Assembly: GCA_019055375.1 (NCBI GenBank)
Contig: JAHQIW010001903.1
Location: 1-64,000 of the forward strand
Length of the DNA stretch: 64,000 nt
Reading direction: 5' to 3'
Source: Parelaphostrongylus tenuis
Lineage: Eukaryota > Nematoda > Chromadorea > Rhabditida > Metastrongylidae
Of this stretch, positions 19,141-52,830 are shown piece after piece (position 1 is the first letter of the stretch; each line of letters opens with the position of its first letter). The position numbers and the translations under genes are program-made. Below the pieces are notes generated by a model. That model made no database searches, was not told the DNA's origin, and saw only the letters and a list, made by a program, of their open reading frames with translations.

Positions 19141-19164
19141 ATGTTTCAATCGTTTTGTGAAGTC

Positions 19165-19207
19165 TGTCAGTTCAGGAGGTGTAGCCCTCCTCATTAGTGG
19201 TCCAAGC
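19165..19207 (-). ncRNA. Degenerate hammerhead motif, left arm
   Basis: The minus strand reads CUAAUGA for the core (G5 to A), then a GGAG/CUCC stem II, then UGAA instead of GAAA. A relic. Confidence 0.45.
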
Positions 19208-19373
19208 CCCAAACTGAACGCTACTCTATAGCAAGGATGGAGAGGCGTTGTTTATGGTGACAACACATGCTATTGTGTTATCCTCATTTATTTCAGTGTT
19301 AGACAATATCGTGTTATCACCATAAACAGCGTTTCCCCATCCCTGCCGTAAGGTAGAGTTCAATGTAGGGCAT

Positions 19374-19420
19374 GGGTCACTGATGAGGAGGGCGGCACCT
19401 CCGAAACGTACGTTTTGCAC
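19374..19420 (+). ncRNA. Hammerhead ribozyme motif, right arm (CUGAUGA core)
   Basis: Core CUGAUGA lies at 19380-19386. Stem II is GGAGG/CCUCC with loop GCGGCA (19387-19402). GAAA is at 19403-19406, and palindromic stem III is ACGUACGU (19406-19413). The stem I strands GGGUCA and UUGCAC pair poorly, so the core is intact but stem I is decayed. Confidence 0.65.
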
Positions 19421-19440
19421 TGGCGTAACAACCTCGGTCA

Positions 19441-20215
19441 GACTTTGAACATTCTTACTGGGTATACTGAAGAGGAATTTTAGACGATGATTGCTCAAGA
19501 TTATAGAGCCGGAATAGTACTCTACTTGAACTGTCTCGGCTTCAATAGGAGTGAAGCTGATCACATCTGGAGGTTAACATTTTCTAAATCTACGCTTTGA
19601 TTTGAAGTTATTAAAGACTGACAAATGTCAAATAAATTTCGACAAAAGTCATAAAAACCTGTAAGTATCAACTGCGAAAGAATTCTCACATTTGACTAAT
19701 AAACTCAGCAGTATTTGGCCTAGCAGCTCCTATGATGGACAAAGTGCTAAGGAGCTACTCAGTCCTTTTTACGTGTTATTCTATTAGCAAATTCTTGACT
19801 CGAAAAGCTTGAGCAGCAATCAGCATTTCCTTCAGAGTCGAAAACGGATAAAGAACTTTATAGTCAGTAACAGGAAAAGATGATGAAGTGGAAGTACAAT
19901 CAAGGTTATATTTTGCTTGTGTCAGAGCTTTTACTAGATTGTTTATTGATAAGCATACATGAAGTCGTTTGAAAAATTCACTTTGGCCAGTCTTTCGACG
20001 GAATCACCTTTATCGCTACCACGATAGTTCGTGTAGAATGTCCACAAAAGTTGCTTCTGTTTCCGATGTTAGTCCTTACAGGTTTAACATCAAGCTGTCA
20101 TAAAGTAGTAATTTGATTGACGGTTGCTATGTGTCCCGAGAACTACCGCGTGAGATCATCTCACTTCAGACTATAATAATTCCTTATTTTCTTCTTTAAG
20201 CCAAACATGAAGAGT
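19441..20215. other. No recognisable gene
   Basis: A minus-strand open frame ends inside the ribozyme repeat to the left and is treated as spurious. Nothing else identified. Confidence 0.4.
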
Positions 20216-20219
20216 TACA

Positions 20220-21835
20220 TTAATCTTTATTTAACAGCTGACATTTCGCCAGTTCGCCATCTTCATAGCCTGGAAAGAGCCTTCTTTTTCAAAGCCTCTC
20301 TGCAATCCAATCAATCAAGCATCTCCATTAGTTCCTTAGAAAAAATCAGCAAGCCTAGATTTTAATCGCATCAAGCTCAAATCAACTCTCAACATACTCA
20401 CAGCTTTTTATATATGTTACACTGAGTTATTTAAGTTGAGATCACCGCAAGAAGATCACATAGGCTCGTAATGCACCCTACCCATCAAAACAACAGTCTT
20501 ATAGAATGACTTATGTCACGAGTAATAACGAGGCATTCCTTCCTGCGGTTGATAGTTGGACTGATCGTGTTAGTCCAAAGTGCTTCAAAAATTTTTCGCG
20601 CTGATGTTTTTGTTCCTGCGCAAGGATGGTGACTTCGATCTCAAAATCAACTCCGTCGTGTTTCTGTTCTCTATGCGTCCCTAGCGAGGTGTTCCGGCTA
20701 TCAAGACGCTTGTCAGCTAGGTGTTCTATTCGGGCATAGAGCGGCCAACCCGTTTCGCCAATATATTTGTCGCTACACGCTCTGCAAGAGATTAGGCAGA
20801 CTGTACCTATGCTCATACAATCACCGTCTCTGCCGTTACAACATATTTTACAATCTTTCGTTACACAGAGACGGTTATATAATCGGTTGCGAACTAATTG
20901 ACGTTTTAGAGTATTCGGCGGAATTTCGATATTAGCCAACAATTGCTCCAAACCTGTTCTTTTCAATGAACAGAACAGAAAGATAAAAAGAGACTTTCCT
21001 TTCATTGGAGTTTTCGTTCAGAGGCGTGCTGTTTTCGCTAAACCTAAGCCGGGGGTTACAAATTCGCATCCATTAGAAGTGTCTATTTTCCGAGCCATTT
21101 CACGGATTCTGCTCTCTGTTTCTCCGCGGTACTTACATTGGCTGCTGTTTGAAACATGTTTTTTACTGGCGCTTTTTCAGTTGTGAGGGATGTGAAAAGA
21201 GATAGTGAACCAGGTTATTCTAATTACTTGGCTTTCGGTACCACTTTGTTATGTAGCCGCTCTCGCGTAAGTTTATTTGCACGTTCAAGGAAGAGAGCCA
21301 ATCATCTTTTGATAACTCACAGGTGGATTTTATGTACTCCGACTGTTCATTCAATAATCTAAAGCAAGTATCTAGCTCCTTTTAAGTGGAACAAATAACC
21401 AAACAATCATTTATATACTTACAGTATGGCCGGAGATCCATTACTGGTGCTTCCACTTTCGGCATAGAGGCAATCGTCCGGCTAGGTTCCAGTCGCCTCC
21501 CCAGTGCTAGCCCTCTCATTTGAGCATAATATTTCCCGGACCATCTGAAGATTGAGCAGTTCAGGCACTCTTCTAATAGAACCGTAAAATGCTCAACCGA
21601 CAAGCCATACATGTTTACAGCTACCTGGTGTTGTATCAGAAGCTCATGTGTGGCTTGCAATGCGGAGTCATTCGACACGTTGGCATATAGAGCAGTGACG
21701 TCGAATGACTCTATTACGTAGGCATTGTTCAGGTTCGCTTTGCGTAGACCCAGGAGCATCTGGGTGTTCGCCAGGTGCGCTGGAATGTGTCCTAGCAACT
21801 GGGATTTATTAAAGTCAAGAACATGTTGGAATCAT
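20220..21835 (-). mobile_element. Penelope-like element (PLE), degraded
   Basis: The minus strand carries, 5' to 3', an RT piece (21798-21382) with ESFDVTALYANVSNDSA and a catalytic block reading CKYINDCLVI, where PLEs have YIDD; the first Asp is replaced. A GIY-YIG endonuclease piece (21005-20511) follows, with CLISCRACSDKYIGETGWPL and a downstream EQKH block. The RT plus GIY-YIG order is diagnostic of PLEs. Frameshifts separate the pieces, so it is not autonomous. An HHR-like motif lies at the 3' end. Confidence 0.85.
20232..20278 (-). ncRNA. PLE 3'-end hammerhead-like remnant
   Basis: The minus strand has AUGAAGA (C to A at the first core base), a short weak stem II, then GAAA followed by UGUCAGC. 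It sits at the 3' side of the GIY-YIG frame, as in the other PLE ends here. Confidence 0.45.
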
Positions 21836-22059
21836 TAAAACATTCGATATCGAATGATTACAAATAGTCCTCAAGAAAGAGCCTTGTCCAGCGATGTTCA
21901 AAGCACAAATCTGTTTTTCTCCTGCACCGCTGTTAAAAGAGCTTCTCCAAAGCAAACGTATTTTTTGGTTTTTCAAACTTGCACTATCGAACGAGCACTA
22001 GCACCCTAAAGAAGAATTTTTGTCGAGCGAAATTCAAGTGAGATAAGAAAAAAAAAATG

Positions 22060-22270
22060 CGGGGTTTGGAACATCACAATTTTATTTTGAATTATTTAGC
22101 GTTATAGAAGGGTGTTTGAAAAATCGGCGAAGTGTGGCTGTAACCCGAAGTCTCAGCTCTCGGATGGCTATTAACACTTTTATGAGAAGTTCCTTTCCAG
22201 CAAACGAGGTTGGTTTTTTATTTGTCTCCTCCTAATCAGAAAAACCAACTTTTTATTTATTGTTATAATT
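22060..22270 (+). repeat. Dispersed repeat M, copy
   Basis: Contains blocks shared with 24490-24800 (inverse), 25130-25420, 29930-30080 and 47260-47950. These are a GTGTTTGAAAAA-like block, AAGTCTCAGCT, GGCTATTAACACTTTTATG and TCCTTTCCAGCAAA. The element type is unknown, possibly a non-autonomous DNA element. Confidence 0.5.
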
Positions 22271-22431
22271 GATGATCTAATAAACGTAATTATTCCTTCA
22301 ATTGAATGAAGTCATCTGTTTGCTTAGTACTTTTTTACTTTTCGCTTCGACTGTTTCTTGACCCCTCGCTCAAATTTCAGTGTGCCTGATAGTTATTTTT
22401 AAGCCACGCATGTAGTCTATTGTACGCACTT

Positions 22432-22478
22432 ATATACTGAAATGCAAGTGTTTTGGCACTGCAGCCTCGTCAGTGTAA
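22432..22478 (-). ncRNA. Hammerhead relic, family II, left arm
   Basis: Core CUGACGA is intact (complement of 22467-22473) and stem II is GGC/GCC. GAAA reads AAAA and stem I pairing is lost. Probably inactive. Confidence 0.5.
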
Positions 22479-22547
22479 AACGTTCCTCGTCAACTCCTCT
22501 GTAGTGTAAAATGTACATCCCGAGGAACAACTGAGCGAAAAGGCACC

Positions 22548-22600
22548 GTTCAACAGACGAGACTGCAAGGCCTAAACGCATGTATTGCTCTGTAGAAGTG
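22548..22600 (+). ncRNA. Hammerhead-like relic, right arm
   Basis: CAGACGA, then GACUGCAAGGCC, then UAAA, then CGCAUGUA. It resembles the S2-type block with several core changes. Confidence 0.4.
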
Positions 22601-22639
22601 CCCATAACAGACCACATTCATGGGTCAAAAATCAGTACC

Positions 22640-23480
22640 AGCCATATTCATTTAGTTTCGAAATTTCTGGAAAATTGACGGAACTTTTTACGCCCCTGTA
22701 CGCCACATTTGACAGGAAACTGACCTTTCGTTAAGTCAAAAACTTTCTGAATTGAGTTACAATAGAAGTGGCCTGATTTGAGAAACTATCAAGTGATAAC
22801 CATACATTGATCCATAGAAAATAAGTTGCGAAGTAATTATTTACACGACCTTTGTTAAATCAGTTTTATATAATCACTGCATAAATTTGCTTGACACATT
22901 ATTGCATTCGAAGAGCAAGGAGAGTACTGTAGCGAAGCTGTTCGTCGCTCAATGACTCAATTGAGACGACAAAAAAGTGCGAAGACACAGAAATTTTTCA
23001 ACACGGAACTTATACAACGCGAAGCTGCCAGTGCTGCTTATTCAGCTTCAATTATCGTTGGTACAAGGACTCACAACAGGGCCAATGATCATACAGCTTT
23101 GATGGTGCTTTCGATTTATCATTCACGAAGTAGACACGATAGAATTTATTATGTTTAGAGTCGCGGCAATCGTCGTTAACGTTCTGGAGATCAATGGATC
23201 TTCCTGCTTCACACATTAGGCTGTTTATCACTGAGATGAGGCTCGTCACAAGGAAAGAAATGCTTTCTAGGTGCTTTCAATTCGTTATTGGTGCATGAGT
23301 CAATGAAGAGCTCTCATACTTCGAAGTTTAATCAAACGTATGCTGCCCACAGTTCTATAAATGGAGAGCGAGTGTTCTATTGCCCACTGGGAAAATGTCA
23401 GAATCGCATTAAACGAAGTTCTTGTTATTGTAAAGCACACAGATATTTACCTGAAAACGTTGATTTGAATTGAGACTGTC
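22640..23480. repeat. Dispersed repeat L, partial copy
   Basis: Blocks such as TCAATTGAGACGACAA and the region around CAAGAGATTATTTACACGA-like sequence are shared with 33180-33800 and 54240-54560. The type of element is unknown. Confidence 0.45.
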
Positions 23481-23484
23481 GGAT

Positions 23485-24485
23485 TACTTCAAAAACTTAA
23501 AATAATGAGTAGGCCGAATTGATCGCCCATCATAGGAAGATTTCGTTCGGCACTTTTCAAAGGATTTTTTCAAATCATCATTGAAATGAAAAGCAGCCAG
23601 ACCGTTACACAGTTGTGAGACTTCAATATACGAAATGTGCGCCAACAAACTCTGCTTTCTCTGCATATCGGCGAGAGACTGAGGGCGTTCCTGAACATAC
23701 ATCTCGTGAGAAATTTCAAACGTCTAAAAAGGCAAGAACGATTCCTCCTCTTGGTGTTTTTAACAAGGTCCACTGTAGTTTCCCACTTCGATACATTGTC
23801 AGCTCAGTCGAGGTGTAGGATTCTTTTACCTTACGATGAGATCTGATGCCTTTATGCAATCATATGCTCCTCGACTATTTCTGACAAGGCCTGCCTTCTG
23901 CCTTCTCATATTTGTGGATTTTGGTAGTTTCACTGATACTTGTCTTTGAATCCTCTAGAAAGATTCTTCAGAACTTCCTATTTGAATATCAAAGCAATTA
24001 GGATACTGAACAAGTTTGATTTATCGCTCATTGTGAGATTATAACGATTCAGACCTCACAAATGATTTATCCGAAACCGTAGCGAAAATTAGATGAGTCA
24101 TTAAACTGCTACAAATAAGATGAAATTTCATTATACAAAATGTTGGCCCCTCTCTCAATAAGGAAGATTTCATAAGCATAGCAAATGTGAGAAGCCAATA
24201 AGAACATCATCGCCTAACAAAAGCGATTTTATTTTATGTAATTTGTTACTAGAAACGTTTCATCAGCAAGAAGTTATGCTCCGTTTTTGTCATTCGATAC
24301 ATGTATTCACGAATTTCTCCCACAAGTGCACTTCTTCTTCGGCGTTTTGTCGCTTCGAACTCTTTAATTTGAGAAATCACGATTTCCTATCGCAGCATCG
24401 GAAATCAGGAAATAGAAATCGATCAAGCCACATCATTTAAAGGACTGCCGCGTCTATTGATACTTATATTTGAATGGTCTCTTCC
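23485..24485. other. No recognisable gene
   Basis: Overlapping short frames on both strands without motifs. Nothing identified. Confidence 0.4.
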
Positions 24486-24489
24486 ACGT

Positions 24490-24800
24490 AACTTACTCTC
24501 ATTCTGCAACATGCGTTTCACTTCATTAGCAATTTTCCTGTAAAAACTCCTATGAATAGTTTCCCTCCGGCAGAATCTGTTACAAAACGTGTTACAAAAT
24601 ATTCTTTTTGATTCGGAAGTAACAAATGAAAAACCGATCTCATTGGCTGGAGAGGAATTTTTTGTAGGAGTGCTAATAACCATTCGAAAGCTGAGACTCG
24701 AGACTACCACCTCACGTCGCCGTTTCTTCAAAACACCCTTTTATAACGTTGTAGCATCCAAATAAAAAAATATGTTTCACACTCGCCTTTTGCCTTCATT
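24490..24800 (-). repeat. Dispersed repeat M, inverse copy
   Basis: Reverse complement blocks of the 22060 and 25130 copies. The plus strand shows GTGCTAATAACCATTCGAAAG and CACCCTTTTATAACGTTGTAG, the latter also near 47330. Confidence 0.5.
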
Positions 24801-27173: not shown

Positions 27174-27174
27174 A

Positions 27175-28695: not shown

Positions 28696-28699
28696 TGTT

Positions 28700-31370: not shown

Positions 31371-31399
31371 ATACATACATGGAAGAATTAACAATGACG

Positions 31400-32554: not shown

Positions 32555-32690
32555 TATACCCATAATGTGGAAAGCTGTGCAAAAATGTTTGCGTCAGCCG
32601 GGATTCGAACCCAGATCTCACTCTTTCCGGGAGCGTATGCTAACCGCTGCACCACCGATTGTCGTTTTTGCACAGCACAGCAAATTTATG
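32555..32690 (-). mobile_element. tRNA-derived SINE (family S1)
   Basis: The minus strand has box A GGTGGTGCAGCGGTTAGC (about 32655-32638) and box B GGGTTCGAATCCCGG (about 32614-32600), with the T stem well paired. A downstream GCAAAAAC tail is shared with 5580-5720. Confidence 0.65.
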
Positions 32691-34020: not shown

Positions 34021-34426
34021 TTTGCTTAGAAGTGCTTATTTGAGTAAGAACAATTTTTCATGATTGAAAACCTATGCTCTCGAAGGCCCATACAATCTCT
34101 CTATAAAGAGGTAGGCGATGACGATATCTACACATTGGCCGTCAAGTGAAAACTCACAAGATCGTCATTTTCGACACTCGGTTGCTCATGGCTAGTATTT
34201 TTGTAACATTATATATTTTACTTCAACTGTTTTATCAATAGCACTCTCAAATTTCAATATATTTTCATAATTCATATTTGAGAATTTATTTTGTTTTGAT
34301 GTCGTCGAGTATCATGACATTCGTTTCGAGTGTTTTCTTAAGACCACAGCCCAAAATTCAATATTCCTTGCAATCATTTTTGAGCCACGCATGCCAGTGG
34401 TCTGTCAATGAGGGCTGACTTATAGA

Positions 34427-34469
34427 GCCCGATACACGTGTTTCGATCTTGCGATCTCGTCAGTCGGGC
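34427..34469 (-). ncRNA. Hammerhead ribozyme, canonical (family II)
   Basis: Every consensus element is present. Stem I is GCCCGA (complement of 34464-34469) paired with UCGGGC (complement of 34427-34432). Core CUGACGA is the complement of 34457-34463. Stem II is GAUC/GAUC closed by GCAA, a GNRA tetraloop (34445-34456). GAAA is the complement of 34441-34444. Palindromic stem III is ACACGUGU (34434-34441) with no loop, and A17 lies at 34433. The cleavage triplet is GUA. The very short stem III is typical of type I ribozymes that work best as dimers. Activity is predicted, not shown. Confidence 0.88.
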
Positions 34470-34731
34470 AGTTACCCCTTCTCGTCTTTTGCTAATCTCT
34501 GTAGATGCTCCAGTCCCCACACTAAGAGTTAGCGACGACGAACGCTTTATACTCTATGTGCAGTGAAGTTATGATATATTGAATATACTAGCCACGAGTA
34601 ATCAAGTGTACAACACTCTGTGTTGGTGAGTTTTTCACTGGACATAGAGTGTAAAGCATTCGTCCTCGCTAACTCTTAGTGTGGGGACTGGAGCACCCAC
34701 AGAGATTAGCAAAAGACGAGAAAGGATAACT

Positions 34732-34774
34732 GCCCGACTGACGAGATAGCACGATAGAAACACGTGTATCGGAC
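34732..34774 (+). ncRNA. Hammerhead ribozyme, right arm, stem II decayed
   Basis: Core CUGACGA (34738-34744), GAAA (34757-34760), stem III ACACGUGU and A at 34768 are intact. Stem I GCCCGA/UCGGAC has one mismatch. Stem II GAUA/GAUA has lost its closing G-C pair, so activity should be low or absent. Confidence 0.75.
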
Positions 34775-34849
34775 TCTATAAGTCAGCCCTCATTGACACA
34801 ACACTGGCATGCGTGGCTCATAAATGATTGCAAGGAATGTCGTCGAGTA

Positions 34850-38015: not shown

Positions 38016-38018
38016 CTT

Positions 38019-38705
38019 TGTCCCATTCACGCTCAACTGAACGACAATCTTCGAACTGCTCCAGTTACGTCTATCTAGGTCATGAAATCAACATGATGAA
38101 CGACCTAGCTCCAGAGTTGAGCAGGAGGAAACGAGCGGCTTGGGGAACATTCAAGAGCATCGAAGATGTAGTGAAGAGGACAAAGAACATCCAGACTCCG
38201 TGCCCACCTTTTCGACTCTACAATTATCCCTGCCCTAACGTATGCAGCAGAAACCTGGTCGCTACGAAAGCAGGATGAAAGATCACTGGAGTTATCGAAC
38301 GCGCAGTCGAAAGGTTGATGCTAGGAGTATTCCGTATCTCGCAAATGAGAGAAAGGATCTGAAGTTCCGACCTACGTCAACGATCGAAAATCAGAGGCGC
38401 CGTTCTACACGCCAGAATATTGAAAATAAGGTGGGCGGGACACGTGATGCGCTTCAACGACAACCGATGGACGAGAGCCGTTACCGACTGGATTCCTCGG
38501 GACGTCAAGCGCTCTAAAGGAAGACCACTGACCCGTTGGTCCGATTTCTTCACGAAAGCGACAGAAGAAAGATATGACGCTCAGCGAATCCCTAGAGCAA
38601 GGAGGACCCACTGGGCTACTCTTGCACGCGATAGGAAAAAATGGAAGAGTTGTTGTTACCCGCTCGAGTCACTCGACGATCAACTGGACGACAAGTGATA
38701 CAGGT
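38019..38705 (+). mobile_element. RTE 3' fragment, frameshifted
   Basis: Nucleotide-level match to the C-terminal half of the 3590-4850 fragment, on the opposite strand. It starts at CCCATTCACGCTCAAC. Protein pieces include SYVYLGHEINMMNDLAPELS, RAAWGTFKSIEDVVKRTKNI, then after frame changes KIRWAGHVMRFNDNRW. It ends at AAGTGATACAGGTGA. 5'-truncated, with at least two frameshifts. Confidence 0.88.
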
Positions 38706-41700
38706 GAACACGTTTGCGAAAATAAGCAGCCGACAAAACAGAAGTCATTGTCCTTCTGGCGGTTTATTCCATCCAATAAAGCTTTTTTTCCTATGCTGTT
38801 GCCAGGATCGCAAGAAGTTTTACCTTCACATCTCCTAATTTAGTAATTCAGAAAAAACAGTTGTTGCGAGCAAGTTCGTTTTGTTTGCGATCATAGACTG
38901 CTGTAGGCTCTAAAGAATACTAGCAGTTACTTTTTGACCTAAGCCTGGTGACTTCTATAAATTAAATACAGAATTTTCTCCCACTTCACCGAATTCAACT
39001 TAATTTGGCAACGCGCACTAGCAACGCAAAAGAGACCTTCTCTGGACCGCCGATTCCCATCATTGCAACCCTGCAGAGGGTCAAAGTTCGGCAAAACTAT
39101 ACTACTCAAGAAGAAGCTGTTGTCAAAGCCAAAGATGAAGCACCTTTTCTAAAGAACAACAAGATGGGCTAAATATTCGCTATAAATAGATTTTTCTTTT
39201 CCAAAGCTGACGTGAATAAATTCCAGAAGGGTGGCGGAAAGAAGAAAGGAAAATCCGGCTCCTTCATGACTGTGTCCATACTATACCCAGAGCCGCTTAA
39301 CAACCTAATAAATATGCTCAATGAAGTGCTCCTCCATTTCTTCCGATGTATCATTACTAACAAAAAAAAAGCTTCTGGTGTGACTGATGCTGCAAGCATT
39401 ACCTGCTGCCAAGGAGGCCAAGTCGGACGATGATAAGAAGAAGTGTGCTGGAGCAATCATGTCAAAGCTGGTGAATGATGGTAGCCATCACTGAGGAAAT
39501 GTTCCGTATCGGACTTACCAAAGTTTTCTTCAAGACAGGAATTTTAGCGCATCTTAAAGATCTTCGTGATGAAAAACTTGGCTGAATCATGACCGGATTC
39601 CAAGCCCACCAAGCCCAAACCCGTTGCATTTGGACTGGCGGATCAAAAACGAAATATGAAACGATGAGCGGGTCTGCTGATATTCCAAGGAATGTCCACT
39701 CATGTTGCACTCTTAGAAACTCGAATGGCTTAAGTTGTATGGAAAAATCAAGCCCATCCTCAAATCTGGAAAAGAAGCTAAAGAGATGGAAAAGCTAAAT
39801 GAAAGTGTCAAACTCTTGAAGAAAGTCTTGCTAAAGTGGAGAAGCTATGCAAAGAACTTGAAGACAGTATGACTGATTATTGAAAGAGAAGAACAGTCTA
39901 TTCACTGATCTCGAAAGCACCAACAGACAACTTTCCGATGCTGAGGAGCGCCTAGCTAAACTCCAAGTTTTCAAGTCAGACGCCAAAAACAAGTTGCTGT
40001 AAGTAAAATCTAGTGCTTTCTAAGTAGGGCAAGAGACCTAAACCTGAGCTCAATTCGGACAACAAATAAAATTACTTTTGACGGAAATTTAACAACCGTC
40101 TCGCCGATCAAGAAGACCGCAACGCTGATAATATGCGGGCGAAGAAGAATGTAGAATCTGAAATAGAGTCATTGAAGAAGCAAATCCAAGTATTTGAGAT
40201 GAGCTTAGAAGAGTCGTATCAGAGAAACAATCCAAAGATTTTCAGATTTGCTCGTTCCGGGACGAAATGCAGCAACAGGATGCAGTCATAGCAAAGTTTA
40301 ATAAACAGAAGAAACTCTAAGCAGAATTCAATCGTAAATTGATGGAAGATCTACAGTCCGAAGAGGGCAAATCAAACCACACCCAACAAGGTGGAAGCTA
40401 AACTCGAGCAGGCTTTGTATCTTGGAAGAAGGCTGTGAACGCAAAAAACGAGTTCATGCTGATCTATAAGCAAAAGCGAAAAGTAGAGGGAAAGCTGAAA
40501 ATCGCTCAAGAAAATATTAATGAAGCTGCCCAACAAAGTCACGATATACAAAACAATCTAAAAAAACAGGGCGAATTGCACTCTGTGAGAAGCAGTCGCG
40601 AATATAAACAAACTCTAGTTAGCAAGGTCCAACGTCAAATCGAAGAGAGACATAGTCGTGTTTCTGAGCTAGAAGAAGAGCTTGAAGGTGAACGCCAATC
40701 TCGTTTTAAGGCTGACAGAGCCAAGTTTGATTGCCAGAGAGAACTTGAGGAGCTCGGTGTTTGTCTAGATGAGCAAGGTGGTGCTACCACTGCTAAAAAT
40801 GAGTAAAATGAAAAGCGTGAAGCAGAATTAGCTAAGTCGTCACGACTTGGGGGAAGCAAACATGAGCAACCAAAAACCAACTCGGTGAACTGCGCAAAAG
40901 CATACCGACGCTGTTGCTGAGTTGACATATCAGCTTGACCAGGTGCAAGAACAGAAGGCCAAGATTGAGAAAGAAGAAATCCAGGCTAGCAGTGAAGCTG
41001 AGGATCTGGCCGTTCAATTGGACTCTGAGGTCTCAGCCAAACTTAACAACGAAAAACTTGCCAAGCAATTCGAACTTCAGCTGACATAATGCAAACTAAA
41101 TGCGATGAACAAGCTCGTCAACTTAAAGACCTTGCCTCTTTGAAAGTACGCATCCAAAGCGAGAACGGTTAACTTCATCGTCAGCTGGAAGATGCAGAGT
41201 CTCAGATGGACCATTTCTCACGCTTGAGGAGTCAGCTCATTGGCCAGCTTGAAGAAGGTCGCCGTACTGCTGATGAGGAAGCTCGTGATCGCCAGATGCC
41301 CTCGCTGCCCAAGCTCAGAATTACCATCATGAGGCTGAACAACTCCAAGAAAGTCTTGAAAAGGAGATTGAGTCCAAAACGAGGTGCTGCGGCAATTAAG
41401 CTAAGCTAATGCAAAAATCCAGTAGTGGAAAGCGCGAATCAAAGGTAAAGGTTTCACTCAAGCTGATAAACTTGAAGATGCAAAAAACGCCAGGCACAAA
41501 AGATCAGCGAGTTGCAAGAAAGGCTAGACGCAGCCAACTTCAAGGGTGTCTCTCTAGAGAACACTAAGAGTAGATTAGTGGGAGATCTTGATGATGTGCA
41601 GGTCGATGTAGAGCGAGCAAATGCGTTCGCTAATTTACTGGAAAAGGAACAGAAAGGCTTTGGCAAAGTCATCGACGAGTGGTGAAAGAAGACCGATGAC

Positions 41701-43490
41701 TTGCTTGCAGAACTTGGCAGTGCTCAGAGGGATGCTAAAAATAAATTCATTATTGCTCACGGCAAAGAACGCTCTAGAAGAATTACATAAAGTTGTTGAG
41801 GGCCTACGTCGCCAGAATAAGAGCTCAAGTCAGGGAGTCAAGGACCTTACTGACCAACTTGGTGGGGAAGTCGATCAGTTCACGAAGTGCAGAAGATAAT
41901 CCGCCGTCTTGAGATTGAGAAAGAGGAGTTGCAATATGCTCTCGACGATTCAGGGGTAGCCCTAGAAGTAGAGGAAAGCAAGTTGCTCCATGCACAAATA
42001 GAAGTATCGCAACTTCGCTCAGAGATCGAAAAGCGCATTCAAGAAAAAGAAGAGGTATTTGAAAACACTCGCAAAAACCATCAGCAAGCTATGGATTCAA
42101 TGCAAGCCACACTCGAGACTGAAACCAAAGGAAAGAGTGAGTTGGCTCAGAGTAAAGGAAAAGCTTGAAGCAGATATCACTGAACTTGTGATTGCTCTCG
42201 ATCATGCAAACAAGGCAAACACCGATGCACAAAAATCTGAAGCGTTACCAAGAATAGATCCGCGAGTTACAACTGCAGGTTGAGGAAGAGCAACGCCACC
42301 GAGATGACACCCGCGAGCAGTTTTTCAAGTGCCGAAAAGAGGGCTTCACTACTGTAATCAGAAGAAGAGAAACTGTTGGTGGCTAACGAAGCAGCTGAAC
42401 AAGCACGTAAGCAGGCTGAGTAAGAAGCCAACGACGCACAGCGATCAAGCGAAAGAAGCCTCCGGACAAGCTGCATCGCTAAGCGCTATGAAGAGAAAAC
42501 TGGGGTCGAAATTTAAACCTTGCACGTTAGTTTCTTTTATATTCAAATAATGTAGGTAAACCAAAGTGGTCAGCAAAGTTCTCACAATTATGAATTGTTC
42601 GGTTCAAAACATTCTCTGCTCTCATTACACTCTGAAAATAGATACACATCGCAGTCCTCACAGTGTGCATTTTCACTCTACAAGAGGGCTCCAAAAAAAT
42701 AAGTCTCACTCATAATGTGGAAAAAGCGCTCTATAGGTTGATTTGGATGAAACTCTCAACGAGTACAAGGCTTTTGAACAGCGCAGCCAGAAGCTGATGC
42801 CAACCGTCTGGCCGAAGAACTTCGCCAAGAACAAGAACACTCAATGAAAACTGAGCGAGTGCGCAAGGCCTGAACAGCAGCTGAATGAGATGCAAGTTCG
42901 TCTGGATGAAGGCAAAACTGCTGTATTGGAAGGAGGAAAGAAGGTAAACGTTCAAAAAGTATGATTTTCGAGAAGTTTATTCTATCGAAAACACTAACGT
43001 TATTGCCAAACTGGGACCACAAGTGCTTGAGGCTGAGTCAGAGCAGGACGCTGAACAGCGTCGATACCAAGAGGCTAATAAAAATCACTGTAAAGCCGAT
43101 TGCCGAGTTCGCCAACTTCAGTTCCAGGTGAACATTCGTTCTTTGATTCATTTACCCCGGGAAAAAATGTTTGCATAAATCAATGTAACTCTTCAAGTCG
43201 ATGAAGACAAACAAAACTTTGAAAGTCTGCAGGATCTCACAAATGAGTTGCATAACAAGTGGAAAACCAAAAGCGCCAGATAGAAGAAGCGGTGAGCTCA
43301 ATCCATTTCCCAGTTTTTCAGCTGTTTTCTTGAAGCCAAACATTTTTACCCAAAGCTACTAATACAAAAAGCGGTAAAGTGACTTTGAATATTGATTCAT
43401 AAAATCGACTGCTTTTTGAAAACCTTGCAGTAAACATTCAAAATGATTCCAAAAAAAAATGTCTAAAGCCTAAACGGGGTTGGTACGCCA

Positions 43491-43539
43491 GTGCCATACA
43501 CCGGTGTTTCGGAGGCTTCGGCATCCTCGTCAGTGACAC
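43491..43539 (-). ncRNA. Hammerhead ribozyme, family I
   Basis: Stem I is GUGUCA (complement of 43534-43539) with UGGCAC (complement of 43491-43496), 6 pairs including one G-U. Core CUGACGA is the complement of 43527-43533. Stem II is GGA/UCC plus GC/GC around a CGAA loop with one U-C mismatch (43511-43526). GAAA is at 43507-43510. Palindromic stem III is ACACCGGUGU (43498-43507) and A17 is at 43497. All invariant core bases are present. Confidence 0.85.
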
Positions 43540-43570
43540 CCGCCCCTGCACTGTAACAGGAGGAGCGCAT

Positions 43571-43612
43571 GTGGTGATGGCATAGTGTACAATGACACTG
43601 GTCCATCACCAC
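43571..43612 (+). repeat. Conserved hairpin in family I
   Basis: GTGGTGATGG pairs perfectly with CCATCACCAC, and inside it AGTGT pairs with ACACT. The same hairpin is at 46087-46128 and, less perfectly, at 46448-46489. Confidence 0.6.
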
Positions 43613-43620
43613 TTTTCAGT

Positions 43621-43650
43621 CGAAACCTCCAAAACACCGGTGTATGGCCC
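43621..43650 (+). ncRNA. 3' half of a hammerhead motif, right arm
   Basis: CCUCC, AAAA (for GAAA), then the stem III palindrome and UGGCCC remain. The CUGANGA half is deleted, so it cannot self-cleave in cis. Confidence 0.6.
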
Positions 43651-43919
43651 TGGCGTACCAACCTCGTTTAAGCTTTAGACATTCTTTTTTTTGTTTCATT
43701 TTGACTTCGAATAAAAGACAATGTGAACGCAGTGACTTTCATTACACTGCAGAACTTTCAGGAAGAGGTGGCAAATGCCAATCTGCAGAAGTATCGGCAA
43801 ATCTAGCATCAACGTGAAGATGCCGAAGAGCGTGCTGATGTAGCCAAGAACTCCCTATCGAAAATGATGGTCAAGGCTCGGTCGAGCGCCTCTACGGCTC
43901 CTAACGGTCTTTAGAAATC

Positions 43920-45335
43920 ATTGTCTGCAAAGGTGATGCGATCACCTTCTTGTTCTCGAGTTAGCGACTTCTAAGTAGTTCGATCTGAGGTCATCTCATC
44001 TGGTTATCAAGCGTATTTGGTGAAATTTAGCAAGATATCTATACTTCTTTAGTAGACTATAGTCTTGTTGAATAGTTTCCATCGATTTCACAGGTTGTTC
44101 ATATTCCGAGGCACGGTGACAAAATCAATGTCACTGTTAAGTGTTATTACAATCGTCTAAATTAATGTGTAGAAATACGCATCTATGCGAGTCAGAGAAG
44201 TAACAGAATAAACAGAATTTATGTCACCGATTTTATCCCTCAATTGACTCACCCAAAAAACAACAAAAAAATCATGATGGAAGGAAAACATTCAAACAAT
44301 GATAATAAGTGACAGATGGTCTTTAGTCTATTCTCTGTTGTAGTAGAACTTCTTATACAGTCACACAGTGATCAAAAAATATTGATTTTTACGACAGTAA
44401 TAAACAGACAATTATGAATACAACGAAATAGCCAACAGTAAAAAAACGATTTTCACAGATTTGTTCATTTGGCTCAAAAAATAATGACTTTAAACTTTGT
44501 GCGCCTTGATATTTCCATAATCGCGAGACAACAGAACGCAAAAGTTTACAACACCAAATGGATTATGTTTATAAAAAGATGATGTAAAAACAACACAAAA
44601 CAATATTTTCAGCATCGGAACACACATTCACGTTATAGCTGGGGAAGAAAAAGGCGAGTTGAAGTAATACACAATATTTTATTTTATACTCATAAAACAG
44701 AACAAAAGACAAAAACTATGCTTTCTATGTGGTTGTAAAACAAAGCTGCTTATAGGGAATTGTTTATTGCAAACTTTTTGCTGATAATAATTCCTGCAAT
44801 TAGTCCAAACAGAGCAACACTATGTAACACATGATCAAAGTCGTCCTTTAAATTATCAGATGTTCCAGATGGATGAAGACGCGACGCATGAAGAACACAT
44901 CACTTCCATAAGCGAGCATTGGACTAGTAGATTCAAGTTCAAAAGCGCTAAAACTATCAAAAATCTGAAACAACGGTTAGAAGAAAAAATAAAAGTATGC
45001 TATGCCTTCAAATATGTGCAGATATTTGATACATAAGATATAAAATGACGCATTTCGCACATCTTATGTTGCTTTATTTTAATCCTCTCGCAGTGTTTTT
45101 TTTCACTGTGCAGAATCCGGCAATTCTAGCATTAGTCGTTACTTCTATTCTTCTTAAACACTCTCGAATACTAGTTCAGCGCGTCTCCTTGCAATTTAGA
45201 TGATAGCCAAACTGTCTTGTTCCATACAACAATTCTTAATGACTGTCGCGGTGCTGGGAGATTAAGGGTTAGGTCACAATCTGTCTTAAATGTATATTTT
45301 TTACTGTGCTGGTTGATGATATAGCTTTAAAACTT
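43920..45335. other. No recognisable gene
   Basis: AT-rich sequence downstream of the myosin pseudogene. A block near 45080-45250 (TTTTTTTCACTGTG, then AATCTCCTTGCAAT-like sequence) resembles parts of the 12.8-kb and 15.5-kb tandem units. No gene. Confidence 0.4.
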
Positions 45336-45339
45336 TTCC

Positions 45340-45935
45340 TTACAAGCTTAACACAAAGTTTTTATAATCGAATTTATTTACACAGCCGATGTTTCGGCGG
45401 TTTCGCCTTCTTGAGAGTCTGGAATGATCAGATTGTCCACAACCCCGTTAGCCAATCACCACCACTATTTCGACAGAAAAAGAAACCCAAACGTAGATTT
45501 CAATCGTATGAGCGCATAACAAATTTTGACATACTCACCGCTTTTATGAGTCCTCTTCCACTAAGTGTTCGAGTGAAAACCAATCGTGCAGAGATTACAT
45601 ACATTGTGAATGCACTTTACACATCAAAATGAAGCCTTATTGCTGTGTTATATCACTTTTGATTATTAAGCATTCTTCCACCAACGGTTCACGTTTACAT
45701 TGGTGGAGTTCATACAAAGGACTTCCAAAATTCTTGCTCGCTGGGGCTCAAAGTTCTTGTGCGAAGAGTGTGAGTTCAACATTGAAATGTTCCCCGTTAT
45801 GCGCCTGTGTCCCATTGAAGCCTAGTGGAATACTTCGATTAGCAGTAAGCTCGTCAGCTACGTGTTCTTTTATGCGGAAGCAAAGTAGCCTACTCGTTTC
45901 GCCGACCTATTGAGTTGACAAAGAATTCTGAGGAC
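45340..45935 (-). mobile_element. PLE 3' fragment with GIY-YIG end
   Basis: The minus strand near 45910-45740 reads IGETSRLLCFRIKEHVADEL and then GFNGTQAHNGEHFNVELTLF. This is the C-terminal part of a PLE GIY-YIG endonuclease. The RT was not seen. The element's outer end lies near 45340 with an HHR-like motif. A family I element starts about 30 bp to the right. Confidence 0.7.
45375..45425 (-). ncRNA. PLE 3'-end hammerhead-like remnant
   Basis: The minus strand reads CUCAAGA, then an extra A, then GGCG/CGCC around AAAC, then GAAA, then a weak stem III. The core is altered. Confidence 0.5.
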
Positions 45936-45992
45936 TTTCGTTTTTCCAAAAAAAAAATTATTGTTTTCAGCCTAAACGAGGTTGGTACGCAA

Positions 45993-46041
45993 GGGTCATA
46001 CACCGGTGTTTCGGAGGTTTCGTGCTCCTCTTCAGTGACCC
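45993..46041 (-). ncRNA. Hammerhead ribozyme, canonical (family I)
   Basis: Stem I GGGUCA (complement of 46036-46041) pairs perfectly with UGACCC (complement of 45993-45998). The core is CUGAAGA (complement of 46029-46035). Stem II is GGAG/CUCC with loop CACGAAAC (46013-46028). GAAA is at 46009-46012. Stem III is ACACCGGUGU (46000-46009) and A17 is at 45999. Every invariant base and every pair is present, making it the best family I candidate for activity. Confidence 0.88.
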
Positions 46042-46266
46042 CCGCCCCACATTAAGCCCTGCATTGTAGCAAGGAGGGAGGCGTATGTGGTGATGGCATA
46101 GTGTACAATGACACTGGTCCATCACCACTTTCAGTCGATGGATTTCGGCTGGTAGACCAAAGTAAATCCATGTGATCGGCTGTTTTTGAAAACTCGTAAT
46201 AAGCATTCGAAATAATTCCAAAAAAAAATTTATGTTTTTAGCCTAAACGAGGGCGATGTGGGGCGG

Positions 46267-46315
46267 GGGTCACTGACGAGGAGACCGAAACCTCCGAAAG
46301 ACCGGTGTATGACCC
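46267..46315 (+). ncRNA. Hammerhead ribozyme, middle unit
   Basis: Stem I is GGGUCA (46267-46272)/UGACCC (46310-46315), perfect. Core CUGACGA is at 46273-46279, stem II GGAG/CUCC at 46280-46295 and GAAA at 46296-46299. Stem III reads AGACCGGUGU with one mismatch. The cleavage-site A is at 46309. Confidence 0.82.
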
Positions 46316-46534
46316 TGGCGTACCAACCTCGTTTAGGCTAAAAACATTAGTTTTTTCTGGTTATTTTGAATGTTTAATATGAGGTTTTAAAAACGGTAGA
46401 TCATATGGATTTATTTTGGTCTACCAGCCGAAATCCATCGACTGAAAGAGGCGATGGACTAGTGTCATTGTACACTATGCCATCACCACATACGCCTCCC
46501 TCCTTGCTACAACGCAAGGCTTAATGTGGGGCGG

Positions 46535-46583
46535 GGGTCACTGACGAGAAGGCCGAAACCTCCGAAACACCGGTGTATGGCCC
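46535..46583 (+). ncRNA. Hammerhead ribozyme, right unit
   Basis: Stem I is GGGUCA (46535-46540)/UGGCCC (46578-46583) with one G-U pair. Core CUGACGA is at 46541-46547. Stem II has one A-C mismatch (46548-46563). GAAA is at 46564-46567, stem III ACACCGGUGU at 46567-46576 and A17 at 46577. Confidence 0.84.
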
Positions 46584-46619
46584 TAGTGTACCAACCTCGT
46601 TTAGGCTAAAAACTTTGTT

Positions 46620-47255
46620 TTTGTTGAATATTTTCATGTACTTGAGTTTTTGTTCTTACTGTAGTTGAGAGTAGCTTCTTAAGGCTGTTTTGACTTATAA
46701 CACTTACGATAGAATTGACTCTTCAAGGGGGATTAGATAGAGTTGACTCTTTGAGGCAGAGTTCTCGCAAGACCAAATGCGATTGTTGAAGCTACATGAT
46801 CGTTGTGTGACAAAACAGCACTTGAATCGAAACGATACTCGTGTGGCATCAAGAATCGCTTTTACTGCCACGTAATTCCATCTCATAATAATGGTATAGT
46901 GTCATATATCAAAATACCCGTAAGAGACTGGTCTGAATGATAGCAAAAACTAATCTCATATGCATGGAAAATTACCAACAAGAACGAAAAAGTGCGGGAA
47001 ATCGCTTGCCAACCTAATAATTGTCGCCGTACGCCTTTCAGTTATTGGGTGATTTATTATCGTGCCATGCAATCACCGTTTTACCGTTAGGACATATTGT
47101 GCACTCTCGTATCGTACAGACGTGGTCACACAAGTGGCTTCAAAGTAGTCGGCTTTAAAGTAGTCGCTAGTATAATCAAAAACAGTTAGCGTGGCTCACC
47201 TCTGATATGAGAGGACAAATGATGAAACGACCCCTTTTGCTAGACAAAGACTTTC
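46620..47255. other. No recognisable gene
   Basis: Short frames; nothing identified. Confidence 0.4.
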
Positions 47256-47259
47256 CTTT

Positions 47260-47950: not shown

Positions 47951-48159
47951 TCGTTATCAACCTGTCTAGACCTCTACTTTCCAAAAAGGGTTCGATAGTT
48001 GCACTTATTTAGTTTGAAATAAACCATAAGATAACCGAACCTTCTTTCGCCGAAATTCTCGTTTCAGGGCTATTTCTTTTGAATCCATCTTAAGTAGCTA
48101 CAATTTTAAAGCCACTCTATATGGCTAATTGTCGCGCTAAATTTAGAAGCTTTGCCTTC

Positions 48160-49060
48160 TCCTCTCTTCTTTTTCGCTTCGAGAATGAAGGGATGTGGAC
48201 AACTGAATCGTATCACTCCGGCCTTAGAGAAGATGGAGGTGCCAAAACGTAAGCGTATTGAATTTCATTGATAAGTTAGTGGTTTTATAATGATATGGGA
48301 AATATGGACCAGGCATTCCTCTGTTGAGCATAAATATATTCCAAAACATGCACTGAATTGAAAGCCATTGACAGGGCCGCCTAGAGGTAGGATTGTTGCT
48401 GTGTTGTCTCTGCAGCTGGAAAATAGAACGGAAAATAGGATGCAGCGATAAATTACTAATAAATGAAGTTTATAAAGGAACGGCTGAGGTTCATCTTCCC
48501 ATTGGCTGAAATCCGCTGACTAATCGTAGTAAAGTATTGGAATCCGCTACAAATGTGCTCGTCGCTGAGAATTCGATTTAAAAAAGCACGAAGGTGTTTG
48601 TTCAGCTATATTCGGCGCTCAAAGATTTTTCGTAAAAAGCTAGTGATTCGAAAGCGTGGAATACGCTACCAGTTTGTCCATTCACAAGCAGAAAGCATAA
48701 ATTTTCCGATCGCAGCCACAGAACTCTCTCTAGCACATTGGAATTCGCAACAGAGCTTTGCATTCGCTAATTATAAGTGTAAGGCCACTCTCACAAGAGT
48801 GTTAAAGCTTTCCGATGCTACTTTAATCTGTAGAATCCTGAGCAGAAGTTTTTGAAGTGGTACGCTAGACAAAAACTCTTTGAGCTGATGGATGATTTCT
48901 TCTGCTAATCTAGTCGCGGGAATCTTGGACTGCTAACGAGCGCTGATCGGCGTAAGTGGACACCACTCTGAACGTTCATGCAGTTAAAAGCACAAAATGA
49001 GCTCGAGCGATGTCCTACGCTGTGTTCTTCCTGAATATCAAGCAATATTCAATTCCGACC
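48160..49060. repeat. Dispersed repeat L-related segment
   Basis: Shares GAGGTGCCAAAACGTAAGCG and neighbouring blocks with 53205-53225, and later blocks with the 53500 region. No gene was recognised; the 100-codon frame at 48553 has no motif. Confidence 0.4.
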
Positions 49061-49139
49061 TTACATAAACTACTGGTGAGAATAACTAATAATTTATTCA
49101 ATTGGCGTGCTTACACAATATTATCATATGAAAATCGAG

Positions 49140-50200
49140 AAAACTTATCTCGATTAGCTGACGCGAGGTTGGTAAACTAGACGTAGCAAGTCGGCTGACG
49201 TTTCGCCGACCCACCTTCTTCAAAGCCTAGGCGTATGTAGTATTGCTCTATTTGAGTGATTCGGAGGATCTTATTTATATGCTGCCTAGGTCAAGTAAAA
49301 GATCAAACGAAGAAAGGGCGCGAGATCTCGTGTGATGGTGACGCATTCGTCCTTCCTGTTCATTTCGGGATTTTGGTTTATCCAAATGCCTAAGAGTCTT
49401 GCGCGTGGATGTTTTGATTCCTGCGCTAGGACTGTGACAGTCACATCAAAATCGTTGTTGCTGTGTTTTTGTGCCCTGTGCAAACCTAAAGGTTTCGTTT
49501 TATCTATTTTAGATTTACTATCTAGATGTTCTTTTATGCGGATGGAAATTGGTCTAACCGTTTCGCCTATATATTCTTCCCCGCATGTTTTACATGTTAG
49601 TCAATAAATTGTGCCCGATCTCCTACATTTCCCTTCTTTTCCTTTAGGGCAGATCATACAGTTTTTGGCACCACGGAATTTTCAAGACCGCATCTTTTTA
49701 GGCACCTTTTAACCGCGCTACTAATTTCGCTTGATATAAATGGCAGTTTGAAGGGGACTTAATTCAGGTGCGGAGTATCGTTCTTTCGAGACCTAAATCC
49801 ACTTTTTGAATATTCCCAAGTAGCAGATATTTTGTAGCCGTTGGAAATGGTAATTTTTCGTGCCAAGTTTAACTATTCGTTCCTTTCCTCTTCTCCTGTG
49901 CACACAGTTTTAGCCGTTCGAAACATGTTTTTAATTAGCGATTTTTTCATGTGTGAAGAATGAGAGGAAAAGGTGATTGACCAAAATGTTTTTGTTACTT
50001 GGTTTTCGATACCATTCTGTACTATAGCCACTATCCGACAGTTTTAGTTGGATGTTTAAGAATGGAAGCCAGCACCCGTTTGGACTTTGTCGCGTAAATT
50101 TTATATGCTCTGACTGCCCGTTCAAGACTTCAAAACATTTGTCCATTTCCTCTTGTTTTAAAATGCAGACTTTTTTCCTAATTTTATAAGATCTAGGAAG
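49140..50200 (-). mobile_element. PLE, left head-to-head partner (5'-truncated)
   Basis: The minus strand gives the RT tail (50146-49931) with LNGQSEHIKFTRQSPNGCW and WLPFLNIQLKLSDSGYS. A GIY-YIG region follows around 49610-49500 (TCKTCGEEYIGET, RIKEHLDSKSKID), then HRAQKHSNNDFDVTVTVLAQ. A TGA at 49603-49601 lies just before the TCKTCG block. The copy lacks the RT catalytic motif. It is nearly identical to the corresponding part of the plus-strand PLE at 50278-52830. Confidence 0.88.
49178..49232 (-). ncRNA. PLE 3'-end hammerhead-like motif, left copy
   Basis: The minus strand has UUGAAGA (C to U in the first core base) and an extra A, then a weak stem II, GAAA, and a stem III of ACGU with ACGU around a 13-nt loop. 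C follows, giving a classical GUC cleavage triplet. Confidence 0.55.
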
Positions 50201-50277
50201 CTATACGTATGCGGCTTACCAAAGGACTCTCCAAAGATACTGAGCATTGAAATACAACTACTGCGCATCTCTTTAAG

Positions 50278-52830
50278 ATGCGTCCAAACAAAATGTTCTC
50301 CTACATAAACAAATGTGTATCAAAAGAACATTATTGTGCTCAGTATCTGGAGAAACGCCTTTGGGAGAGAATAGTAAACGAATCAATAGCTATTTGTAAT
50401 GATATCCAGCGCAATATCAAAAATAATCTGAGAGAAAGTTTGACTGCTTTCAATCAAAATCAAGACGTAAAAGCGTCGATTTCCCGTTAACACCGATAAA
50501 TCGGAAAATCAAGGCGCTTTAGAGAGATCAAGAGTCACTGAGTCAGGTGGCGTAACGCTTCCGGATGATGCGCGTTCATTATTAGAATTGGGTCCAAGTT
50601 TTGCACCTAGTCAGCCCATTTCTAAATTAACCCTGCGCAGAATCGTATGCAGTCTACAAGAACTTCAAAATCAACTGCGCTACAAGGCTAGATTAGAAGG
50701 GTTAGGTTACGAAAAAACGACACTACCACCCATTCCCTTCCCACAAACTTTTTACAAGGAAGGAAAACCAAATAGCGAAATCGACCCTATTTTTCGCGTT
50801 TTTTCAAACGAAGTTCTGCAAATACTCAACCACATTCGACATCAGAAAAATAAGCTACAATCTGACACACAAACAAGAATAAGGTTTGACCTAAATGAGG
50901 GAGCTCGTAAGATCAAAAACTATCCATCTATTCGTAAGTGATAAAGGTGGGTAATTTGTAGTAATTGCAAATCACCTGGATGTCGAAATAACGGAGAAAC
51001 ATCTTCAGGATGTCTCCCTCTATCGCCCATCCTCTGAGAATGAACATAAACTCCAATGTAAAAATCTAAACAAAGAATGGGTCAACCCGGCAAGTGCAGC
51101 GGGTTTGGAAACTTCAGTTATCTCGTCAGCTTAAAAACAATAATCCTATTTGTCCGGTCCTATACCTTCGCGTAAAAACACATAAACTTACATCTATTGA
51201 TGATCTACTGTCAACCGATCCATCAACATACAAGGTTAGACCTATCACCAGGTATAGGCGGACCAACGGATAGAATAACGTGGTTTCTAAACCTTATTTT
51301 TACTCAGGTGCTCAAATTCATACCAATCCATCCACCCAATACCCAAATGTTCCTAGATCACCTACGTTGCGCGAAACCAAACAACTCGCACGTAATGGAG
51401 TCATTTGATGTTACCTCACTCTATACAAACGTATCAAATGACTCTGCAATGCAAGCCATTTTCGAACTTTTAACTGAAAATGAACAAAAAGTAAATGTGT
51501 ATGGTTTCATAATTCAACAACTAATGACCCTCCTAAACAATGTCTTAGTTGTTCAATGTTGCGGTGGTCGCGAAAATACTTTACACAACACAGGGGGTTA
51601 GCCGTGGGTCAACGTTTAGCACCTAGTCTTGCCATGGCTTTTATGTATAAGGTGGAAGCTCCAGTTCTCGTTCACCGCCCATTGCTCTACTGCCGGTATA
51701 TAGACGATTGCTTCATTGTCTGTTCCACACAAGAGGAAATGGACAAATGTTTTGCAGTCTTGAACGGGCAGTCAGAGCATATAAAATTTACGCGAGAAAG
51801 TACAAACGGGAGCTGGCTTCCATTTTTGAACATCCAATTAAAGCTGTCGGATAGTGGCTATAGTACAAAATGGTATCGTAAAACCAAGTAACAAGAACAT
51901 TTGGTCAATCACCTTCCTCTCATCCTTCACACATGAAAAAATCGCTAATTAAAAACATGTTTCGAACGGCTAAAACTGTGTGCACAGGAGAAGAGGAAAG
52001 GAACGAATCATTAAACTTGGCACGAAAAATTACCATTTCCAACGGCTACAAAATATCTGCTACTTGGGAATATTCAAAAAGTGGATTTAGGTCTCGAAAG
52101 AACAATACTCGCACCTGAATAAAGTTCCCTTCAAACTGCCATTTATATCAAACGAAATTAGTAGCGCGGTTAAAAGGTGCCTAAAAAGATGCGGTCTTGA
52201 AAATTCCGTGGTAGTTATCGAAATCCCACCTCCCACCAGACGCCATCAGCTGATCCGCAATAGACTTTATGATCGATTGTGCAACACCAAAAACTGTATG
52301 ATCTGCCCTAAAGGAAAAGAGGGGGATTGTATGAGATCGGGCACAATTTATTGACTAACATGTAAAACATGCGGGGAAGAATATATAGGCGAAACGGGTA
52401 GACCACTTTCCATCCGCATAAAAGAACATCTAGATAGTAAATCTAAAATAGATGAAACGAAACCTTTAGGTCTACATTAGGGCACAAAAACACAGCAACA
52501 ACGATTTTGATGTGACTGTCACAATCCTAGCGCAGGAATCAAAAACATCCACGCGCAAGACTCCTGAGGAATTTTGGATAAACGCCCAAAATCCCGAAAT
52601 GAACCGGAAGGACGAGTGCGTCACCCTCACACGAGATCTCGCGCCCTTTCTTCGTTTGATCTTCTAACTTGACCTAGGCAGCACATAAATAAGACCATCC
52701 GAATCATTCAGATAGACTAATACTACATACCCCAGGCTCTAAAGAAGGCAGGTCGCCGAAACGTCAGCCGAACTTCTACGACTAATTTACCAACCTCGCG
52801 TCAGCTAATCAAGATAAGTTTTCTCGATTT
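50278..52830 (+). mobile_element. PLE, near full-length but inactivated
   Basis: Modules in order: an N-terminal region (50278-50490, MFSYINKCVSKEHYC); a basic region and DLNEGARKIKNYPSIRK followed by DKGG and FVVIAN (to about 50970). The RT core has LSPGIGGPTDRITWFLN (51240-51290), SFDVTSLYTNVSNDSA (51403-51450), AVGQRLAPSLAMAFMYKVEA and catalytic YIDD at 51697-51708. A linker follows, then a GIY-YIG domain with TCKTCGEEYIGETGRPL (52360-52410) and EHLDSKSKID. Several frameshifts and a TGA at 52352-52354 make it non-functional. The 3' end carries an HHR-like motif and the TACCAACCTCGCGTCAGC terminus. Confidence 0.9.
52730..52790 (+). ncRNA. PLE 3'-end hammerhead-like motif, right copy
   Basis: CUAAAGA (G to A) and an extra A, then stem II GGC/GCC around AGGUC, then GAAACGUCAGC. 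The second strand of stem III reads ACGA, so the cleavage-site pairing is lost. It mirrors 49178-49232. Confidence 0.55.

Follow-up and report, generated by a model that had tools for sequence, protein, structure and literature searches.

Head-to-head pairs of hammerhead ribozyme elements and Penelope-like elements in the nematode Parelaphostrongylus tenuis

Small ribozyme elements and Penelope-like elements in one contig

We analysed a stretch of 64,000 nucleotides (nt) from the nematode Parelaphostrongylus tenuis (contig JAHQIW010001903.1, positions 1 to 64,000; C1355:1-64000; hereafter the window), which belongs to an assembly of 481,506,261 bases in 5,105 contigs. The window harbors small elements with type I hammerhead ribozymes (HHRs) and, at 49-53 kb, a Penelope-like element (PLE). 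Copies of both kinds of element are arranged head-to-head, with a copy on the minus strand to the left of a copy on the plus strand and the 3' ends facing outward. This is the case at 19.2, 22.4, 34.4, 43.5 and 46 kb and for the PLE at 49.1-52.8 kb. An earlier inspection of the sequence (the original prediction) had named these five places, and a pair was found at each of them, the 22.4-kb pair and the left copy at 19.2 kb being relics. The head-to-head PLE pair with the same geometry, also predicted, is real. The small units comprise the following features.

19135-19242, minus strand: family A left arm with HHR relic (HHR match 19135-19209, E 0.17, not used in model building; homology 19170-19242)
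19316-19471, plus strand: family A right arm (HHR 19368-19427)
22346-22486, minus strand: family B left arm (decayed HHR 22431-22486)
22541-22660, plus strand: family B right arm (decayed HHR 22541-22596; outer end by eye)
34299-34311 and 34837-34849: 13-bp target duplication ATGTCGTCGAGTA of the 34.4-kb unit (P 0.003 and 0.001)
34312-34570, minus strand: family B left arm, long tail (HHR 34421-34476)
34566-34836, plus strand: family B right arm, short tail (HHR 34725-34780)
43378-43386 and 43731-43739: possible 9-bp duplication of the 43.5-kb unit (P 0.08)
43388-43623, minus strand: family A left arm, long tail (HHR 43484-43545)
43621-43704, plus strand: family A right arm with short tail, truncated within the ribozyme
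43600-43657, plus strand: HHR of the right 43.5-kb copy, 3' half only (E 0.0024, not used in model building)
45952-46252, minus strand: family A left arm (HHR 45986-46047)
46256-46625, plus strand: family A right arm with tandem HHRs (46261-46322 and 46529-46590, period 268)

The ribozymes fall into two type I families by motif, structure and models built from the window. Helix III has three pairs and a cap that is mostly CCGG in family A (43-46 kb and 19 kb), and two pairs and a cap that is mostly ACGT in family B (34, 22 and 11.8 kb). Both families have the catalytic core CUGANGA..GAAA, three helices and an A-U pair beside the cleavage site, and self-cleavage is predicted for them; several copies are relics. 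A strict motif scan detected three HHRs in the window, against an average of 0.02 for 100 Markov sequences. The Rfam test suggested in the original prediction gave no answer: the hammerhead models of Rfam 15 found no HHR in the window at the gathering score or at E<=1. Because of this, we built our own models from ten window copies, which match them by construction. The family A model also picks up family B copies (e.g., 34426-34469, minus strand, E 7e-4). Family B is supported by covariation: in its five sequences 83% of the cells were paired, with two-sided changes in 6 of 12 pairs, and 2 of 500 shuffles scored as high. The value for family A was 92%, which was reached by 52 of 500 shuffles; its sequences vary too little for covariation to give an answer. 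Folding of single ribozymes, a poor kind of test, gave a z value of -2 for none of ten sequences (best -1.82, window 34421-34476).

The monomers of the small elements measure about 268 and 318 nt. Tandem periods are 268 (46 kb), 270 (locus L021) and 318 (L001), and tandem copies are present at 46 kb, in L021 and L001 and on contigs C2599, C3941 and C1966; many other copies are not tandem. The plus strand of the 46-kb unit bears two ribozymes in sense orientation, which contradicts the predicted single sense ribozyme per strand. The 43.5-kb pair apparently lies in an intron of a myosin-tail-like gene, pieces of which, with stops, were seen at 40402-40806 and 43200-43915 (Pfam Myosin_tail_1; later exons by eye). 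Three further HHRs have no close partner.

11806-11861, minus strand: family B HHR relic
13163-13216, plus strand: B-like HHR (E 0.0028)
15826-15878, plus strand: B-like HHR (E 0.0006)

The two B-like HHRs sit inside a larger element (13010-16950) of which there are two copies about 2.66 kb apart, and an inverted piece related to this element is found at 61542-61687.

The PLE features of the window are as follows.

49117-49128 and 52879-52890: putative target duplication flanking the PLE pair (by eye, 11 of 12 positions agree; exact over 7, P 0.07)
49129-50156, minus strand: left copy, 5'-truncated, short tail, with a GIY-YIG-like open reading frame (ORF) at 49286-49600, minus strand
50157-52878, plus strand: right copy, broken frame, long tail, reverse transcriptase (RT) part at 51484-51891; 5' limit undefined
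20100-22300, minus strand: relic of a second PLE type (3' end near 20176; limits approximate)

The RT matches RVT_1 with an E value of 1.1e-9, and its nearest relatives among 92 matches are from Angiostrongylus, Haemonchus and other strongylid nematodes (where named). The GIY-YIG match of the window ORF remained under the cut-off (E 0.08), and PF01541 is precomputed for the relatives P0093 and P0094; the six matches of this part include proteins of Ancylostoma and Parelaphostrongylus. Judged by these domains, the element at 49-53 kb is an endonuclease-bearing PLE with RT and GIY-YIG parts and broken frames. Near the start-site region of the PLE, both window copies have only minimal HHR-like motifs (by eye) in which one core base is changed, and no significant fold was found. 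PLE copies in L018 and L012 retain CTGAAGA..GAAACGTC (by eye). A third PLE copy has its 3' end at 45334-45675 (minus strand), just left of the 46-kb unit. The PLE pair is inserted at a tandem repeat of about 69 bp (two copies, 52881-52993). A 42-bp direct repeat next to the PLE was rejected as an extended target duplication since it overlaps this flanking tandem repeat; the 12-bp repeat at the element ends is more likely to be the target duplication.

Other mobile sequences in the window are an RVT_1-bearing element at 3594-4251 with an inverted second copy 34 kb away (38050-38707, 92-96% identical), a Mos1-type helix-turn-helix transposase domain in an ORF at 7662-8339, and three tRNA-like matches barely over the Rfam threshold (5619-5691, 8967-9039 and 32594-32658), which are possibly tRNA-derived repeats.

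Divergent pairing and traces of single insertions

We scanned the first 10 kb of contigs C1-C21 (loci L001-L021) with the models for both families and added eight later stretches as a held-out set, giving 29 loci of 10 kb each outside the window. L014 is near-identical to L013 and was excluded before counting. HHRs of the same family with E<=0.01 and less than 600 bp apart were counted as close pairs. The expected excess of divergent over convergent and tandem pairs was confirmed: the window and L001-L021 together had 11 divergent, no convergent and 4 tandem pairs, with a permutation mean of 3.8 divergent pairs (P 5e-5). Laxer settings brought in one or two convergent pairs. The 29 loci without the window had 9 divergent, no convergent and 4 tandem pairs (P 0.0007), and the last eight loci alone had 2, 0 and 1 (P 0.15).

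For family A we also searched the whole genome with the 46-kb dimer as query and scored the best 40 of 2,908 first-look candidates, which yielded 64 matches on 39 contigs. Among these best-scored matches, 19 neighboring pairs were divergent (18 without the window), none was convergent and 5 were tandem, including a split alignment; on 17 contigs there was no neighboring match. The 3' ends of 26 PLE copies in the window and the 29 loci formed 6 divergent pairs, no tandem pair and one convergent pair 2.56 kb apart. The limit for this count was 2.6 kb, and the window PLE pair lay beyond it and was counted separately. The predicted generality of divergent pairing thus holds as a bias in the window, in the 29 loci and among the best genome-wide matches; the three HHRs without a close partner (11806, 13163 and 15826) depart from it. 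No relatives were found in viral contigs with one exact pattern each for families A and B, and the PLE protein P0006 had none in viral or bacterial/archaeal contigs.

The small palindromes look like single insertions. Exact direct repeats of 9-14 bp lie at the palindrome ends in 5 of 12 small units (each P<=0.008; combined P 9e-8), namely, the 34.4-kb unit (13 bp), two units in L009 (14 and 10 bp) and one each in L020 (9 bp) and L021 (10 bp). L021 contains an inverted segmental duplicate (1-1466 versus 6331-4867 at 99.4%; 2202-2583 versus 4876-4494 at 99.5%). One copy of the duplicate carries a recent 735-nt head-to-head pair, and the other has the single 10-bp target, i.e., a clean empty site. 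Candidate empty-site matches for L020 were weak (60-63%) and were set aside. The PLE pair in L021 is flanked by a 13-bp duplication (7311, 7540), which was equaled by none of 2,000 random flank pairs; insertion-free relatives of its target occur in L017 and at window 8716-8418 (78%).

Outer ends, inner ends and tails

When the copies were mapped on monomers, 36 of 38 3' ends were located 45-80 or 90-135 nt beyond the ribozyme cut. Four of 42 rows were omitted from this tally (L014 and the fragments or relics L002 9624-9733, window 34077-34272 and window 19170-19242); with the three fragment or relic rows counted it becomes 36 of 41, and alignments below 50 nt were not listed. The ends fixed by target duplications, taken by hand from the coordinates, fall at about 58, 59, 61, 64 and 68 nt versus 103, 104, 115, 121 and 128 nt, and all five units concerned have one short and one long end. 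Judged by alignment ends, 9 of 10 small pairs show this combination (P 0.03). All three PLE pairs, which were looked at only after the rule had been noticed, are mixed as well: about 70 and 113 nt in the window, 70 and 114 nt in L021, and 60 and at least about 90 nt in L018, where the contig begins. Together, 12 of 13 pairs are mixed (P 0.005, with the PLE values entered by hand).

The inner 5' ends of the arms are scattered. Five of the 10 small pairs have arms that are not nested, i.e., the arm with the longer tail reaches less far in the 5' direction; these are the 34.4-kb unit, L006, L010 and two units of L009. This is firm in three pairs, the 34.4-kb unit and the two of L009, all with target duplications, since L006 misses by 7 nt and the end in L010 aligns poorly. 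Copying of one arm from the other is impossible in non-nested pairs.

The tails also connect the small elements to PLEs. The window has six occurrences of the sequence TACCAACCTCG, compared to 0.03 expected, and all of them lie behind ribozyme motifs of family A or the PLE. Family A tails resemble the window PLE, with 0 of 200 shuffles as high and 0 of 2,000 for one family A-PLE pair, and less strongly the second PLE type (0 of 200). Family B tails resemble the second PLE type (0 of 200; four single pairs P 0.0035, 0.06, 0.43 and 0.96), and showed no resemblance to the window PLE (0.215). The tails of families A and B did not clearly resemble each other (0.07). The same geometry, the similar size of the duplications, the same two classes of 3' ends and the tail sequence shared with PLEs argue that the small repeats are copied by the same mechanism as the autonomous element, so that this part of the original prediction is well supported.

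Insertion mechanism and relation to known elements

We consider it likely that PLE machinery mobilises the retrozymes by reverse transcription primed from both cut strands, as suggested by the anatomy of the insertions. The small units would be non-autonomous, retrozyme-like elements with a type I hammerhead that use the same machinery as the PLE, most likely PLE-encoded, with the PLE protein as the enzyme. Both target strands would be cut with a stagger of about 9-14 nt, leaving 3' overhangs, and the 3' ends of both target strands would each prime a separate reverse transcript. Synthesis would start within the template, either about 45-80 or about 90-135 nt past the ribozyme cut, and most insertions would have one start of each kind. 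The two cDNAs would stop at 5' points that are independent of each other, and these 5' ends would be joined mid-unit, resulting in a head-to-head pair with the ribozymes near the outer ends. The ribozyme itself might process or circularise the template. Such two-strand priming would explain the non-nested arms, the two classes of outer ends, the target duplication and the independent truncation.

Self-priming by snap-back on a single template, one arm being copied from the other on an antisense template, was proposed by the authors who described head-to-head rotifer PLEs (PMC3846280). The five nested small pairs and the youngest unit, whose arms are identical across 309 nt, would agree with it. 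Neither arm could be copied from the other in the five non-nested pairs, including the three firm ones, and we regard self-priming as improbable. Slightly less probable still is template switching, the mechanism named in the original prediction, in which a transcript started at one target end switches to an antisense RNA of its own family and continues on it to the other target end. It would permit independent end points, and template jumping has been reported for PLEs (PMC3846280). However, the second arm would then stop at the end of the antisense RNA, yet the outer ends of both arms share the same two positions; together with the non-nested arms, this makes it fit less well.

Foldback DNA transposons (miniature inverted-repeat transposable elements, e.g., of the Mutator type) with hammerheads in their inverted repeats by chance would account for the inverted repeats and the 9-14 bp duplications. 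The outer ends of the two arms differ by about 40-70 nt in the five duplication-fixed units and are not the same terminal sequence, inner ends vary and tandem dimers exist, so that this origin is very unlikely. We give just as little credit to two adjoining separate insertions or assembly chimaeras. Family A is indeed very common, as the 2,908 first-look candidates show, but a single duplication encloses both arms, one unit has an empty site, and the inner gaps of 19 divergent pairs measure only -6 to 82 bp. The arms differ by 5-26% in 9 of 10 small pairs; these diverged arms, the target duplications and the empty site make an assembly artefact very unlikely.

Several observations weigh against two-strand priming by PLE machinery. 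No intact PLE copy was seen. Seven of 12 small units lack a clear target duplication, as do all four decayed units of the held-out set. The short/long rule came from the same data in which it was counted, and the held-out set offers a single hint, L023, with ends at 64 and 107 nt and a P of 0.21 for its duplication. The 46-kb pair departs from the rule and gives it no support because its right end is unclear. Similarity of tails varies greatly between single pairs (P 0 to 0.96), and the figures from group shuffles are optimistic because related rows were handled as independent. Contig starts are a non-random sample of the genome. In vitro, the Anolis PLE showed no strand difference in its start site, and HHR mutants inserted normally (PMC11167929).

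A broader proposal goes beyond the small elements: PLE integration may normally involve a protein dimer that makes two cDNAs, one per strand and from two template positions, and the retrozymes of this nematode would be PLE satellites whose palindromes record PLE integration copy by copy. We see the chances for and against this proposal as even.

The original prediction mentioned HHRs in SINE-like (short interspersed nuclear element) or retrozyme repeats; the small elements resemble not SINEs but the non-LTR (long terminal repeat) retrozymes of metazoans (PMC7229834) in their small non-coding monomers, type I HHR, short helix III, palindromic tetraloop and tandem dimers. They also share target duplications of more than 4 bp (here 9-14 bp in 5 of 12 units). 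Metazoan non-LTR retrozymes co-exist with PLEs, which have been proposed as their movers (PMC7229834). Unlike those retrozymes, which the consulted sections of that report describe as tandem and without mention of nematodes, the present elements are mostly head-to-head with one short and one long end. In the literature searched we found no report of head-to-head retrozymes or of nematode retrozymes, which does not in itself show their absence from print. Head-to-head PLEs are already published.

The purified Poseidon PLE protein of Anolis cuts and extends both strands and starts internally downstream of the HHR, and the genomic tail falls between two start sites (PMC11167929). The distance from start to HHR is comparable to that of the nematode start sites. 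The Anolis protein was assayed with its own RNA only and showed no strand difference, whereas the genomic pairs of the nematode usually have one short and one long end.

Rotifer PLEs are reported to be most often head-to-head, with target duplications and a tail on one copy (PMC3846280). The nematode PLE pairs likewise consist of inverted copies with a tail on one and a short duplication, which is exact in L021 and agrees at 11 of 12 positions by eye in the window. The endonuclease-bearing Penelope elements of Adineta vaga share this anatomy, with their inverted head-to-head repeats, tail on one copy and duplications of 8-10 bp. Unlike the situation described in the consulted sections for Adineta vaga, the same anatomy is found here in small elements without RT, and half of the small pairs are non-nested, which argues against the self-priming explanation given there. 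Our data join three published strands, namely, rotifer PLE pairs, Anolis PLE biochemistry and animal retrozymes. The consulted sections of this literature (PMC3846280, PMC7229834, PMC11167929) leave open both the integration mode of PLEs and the mover of animal retrozymes. Both can be addressed with genome data, since the paired insertions are very numerous, small and easy to align, their ends can be read and now and then an empty site is preserved; two-strand priming is already favored over self-priming by such data.

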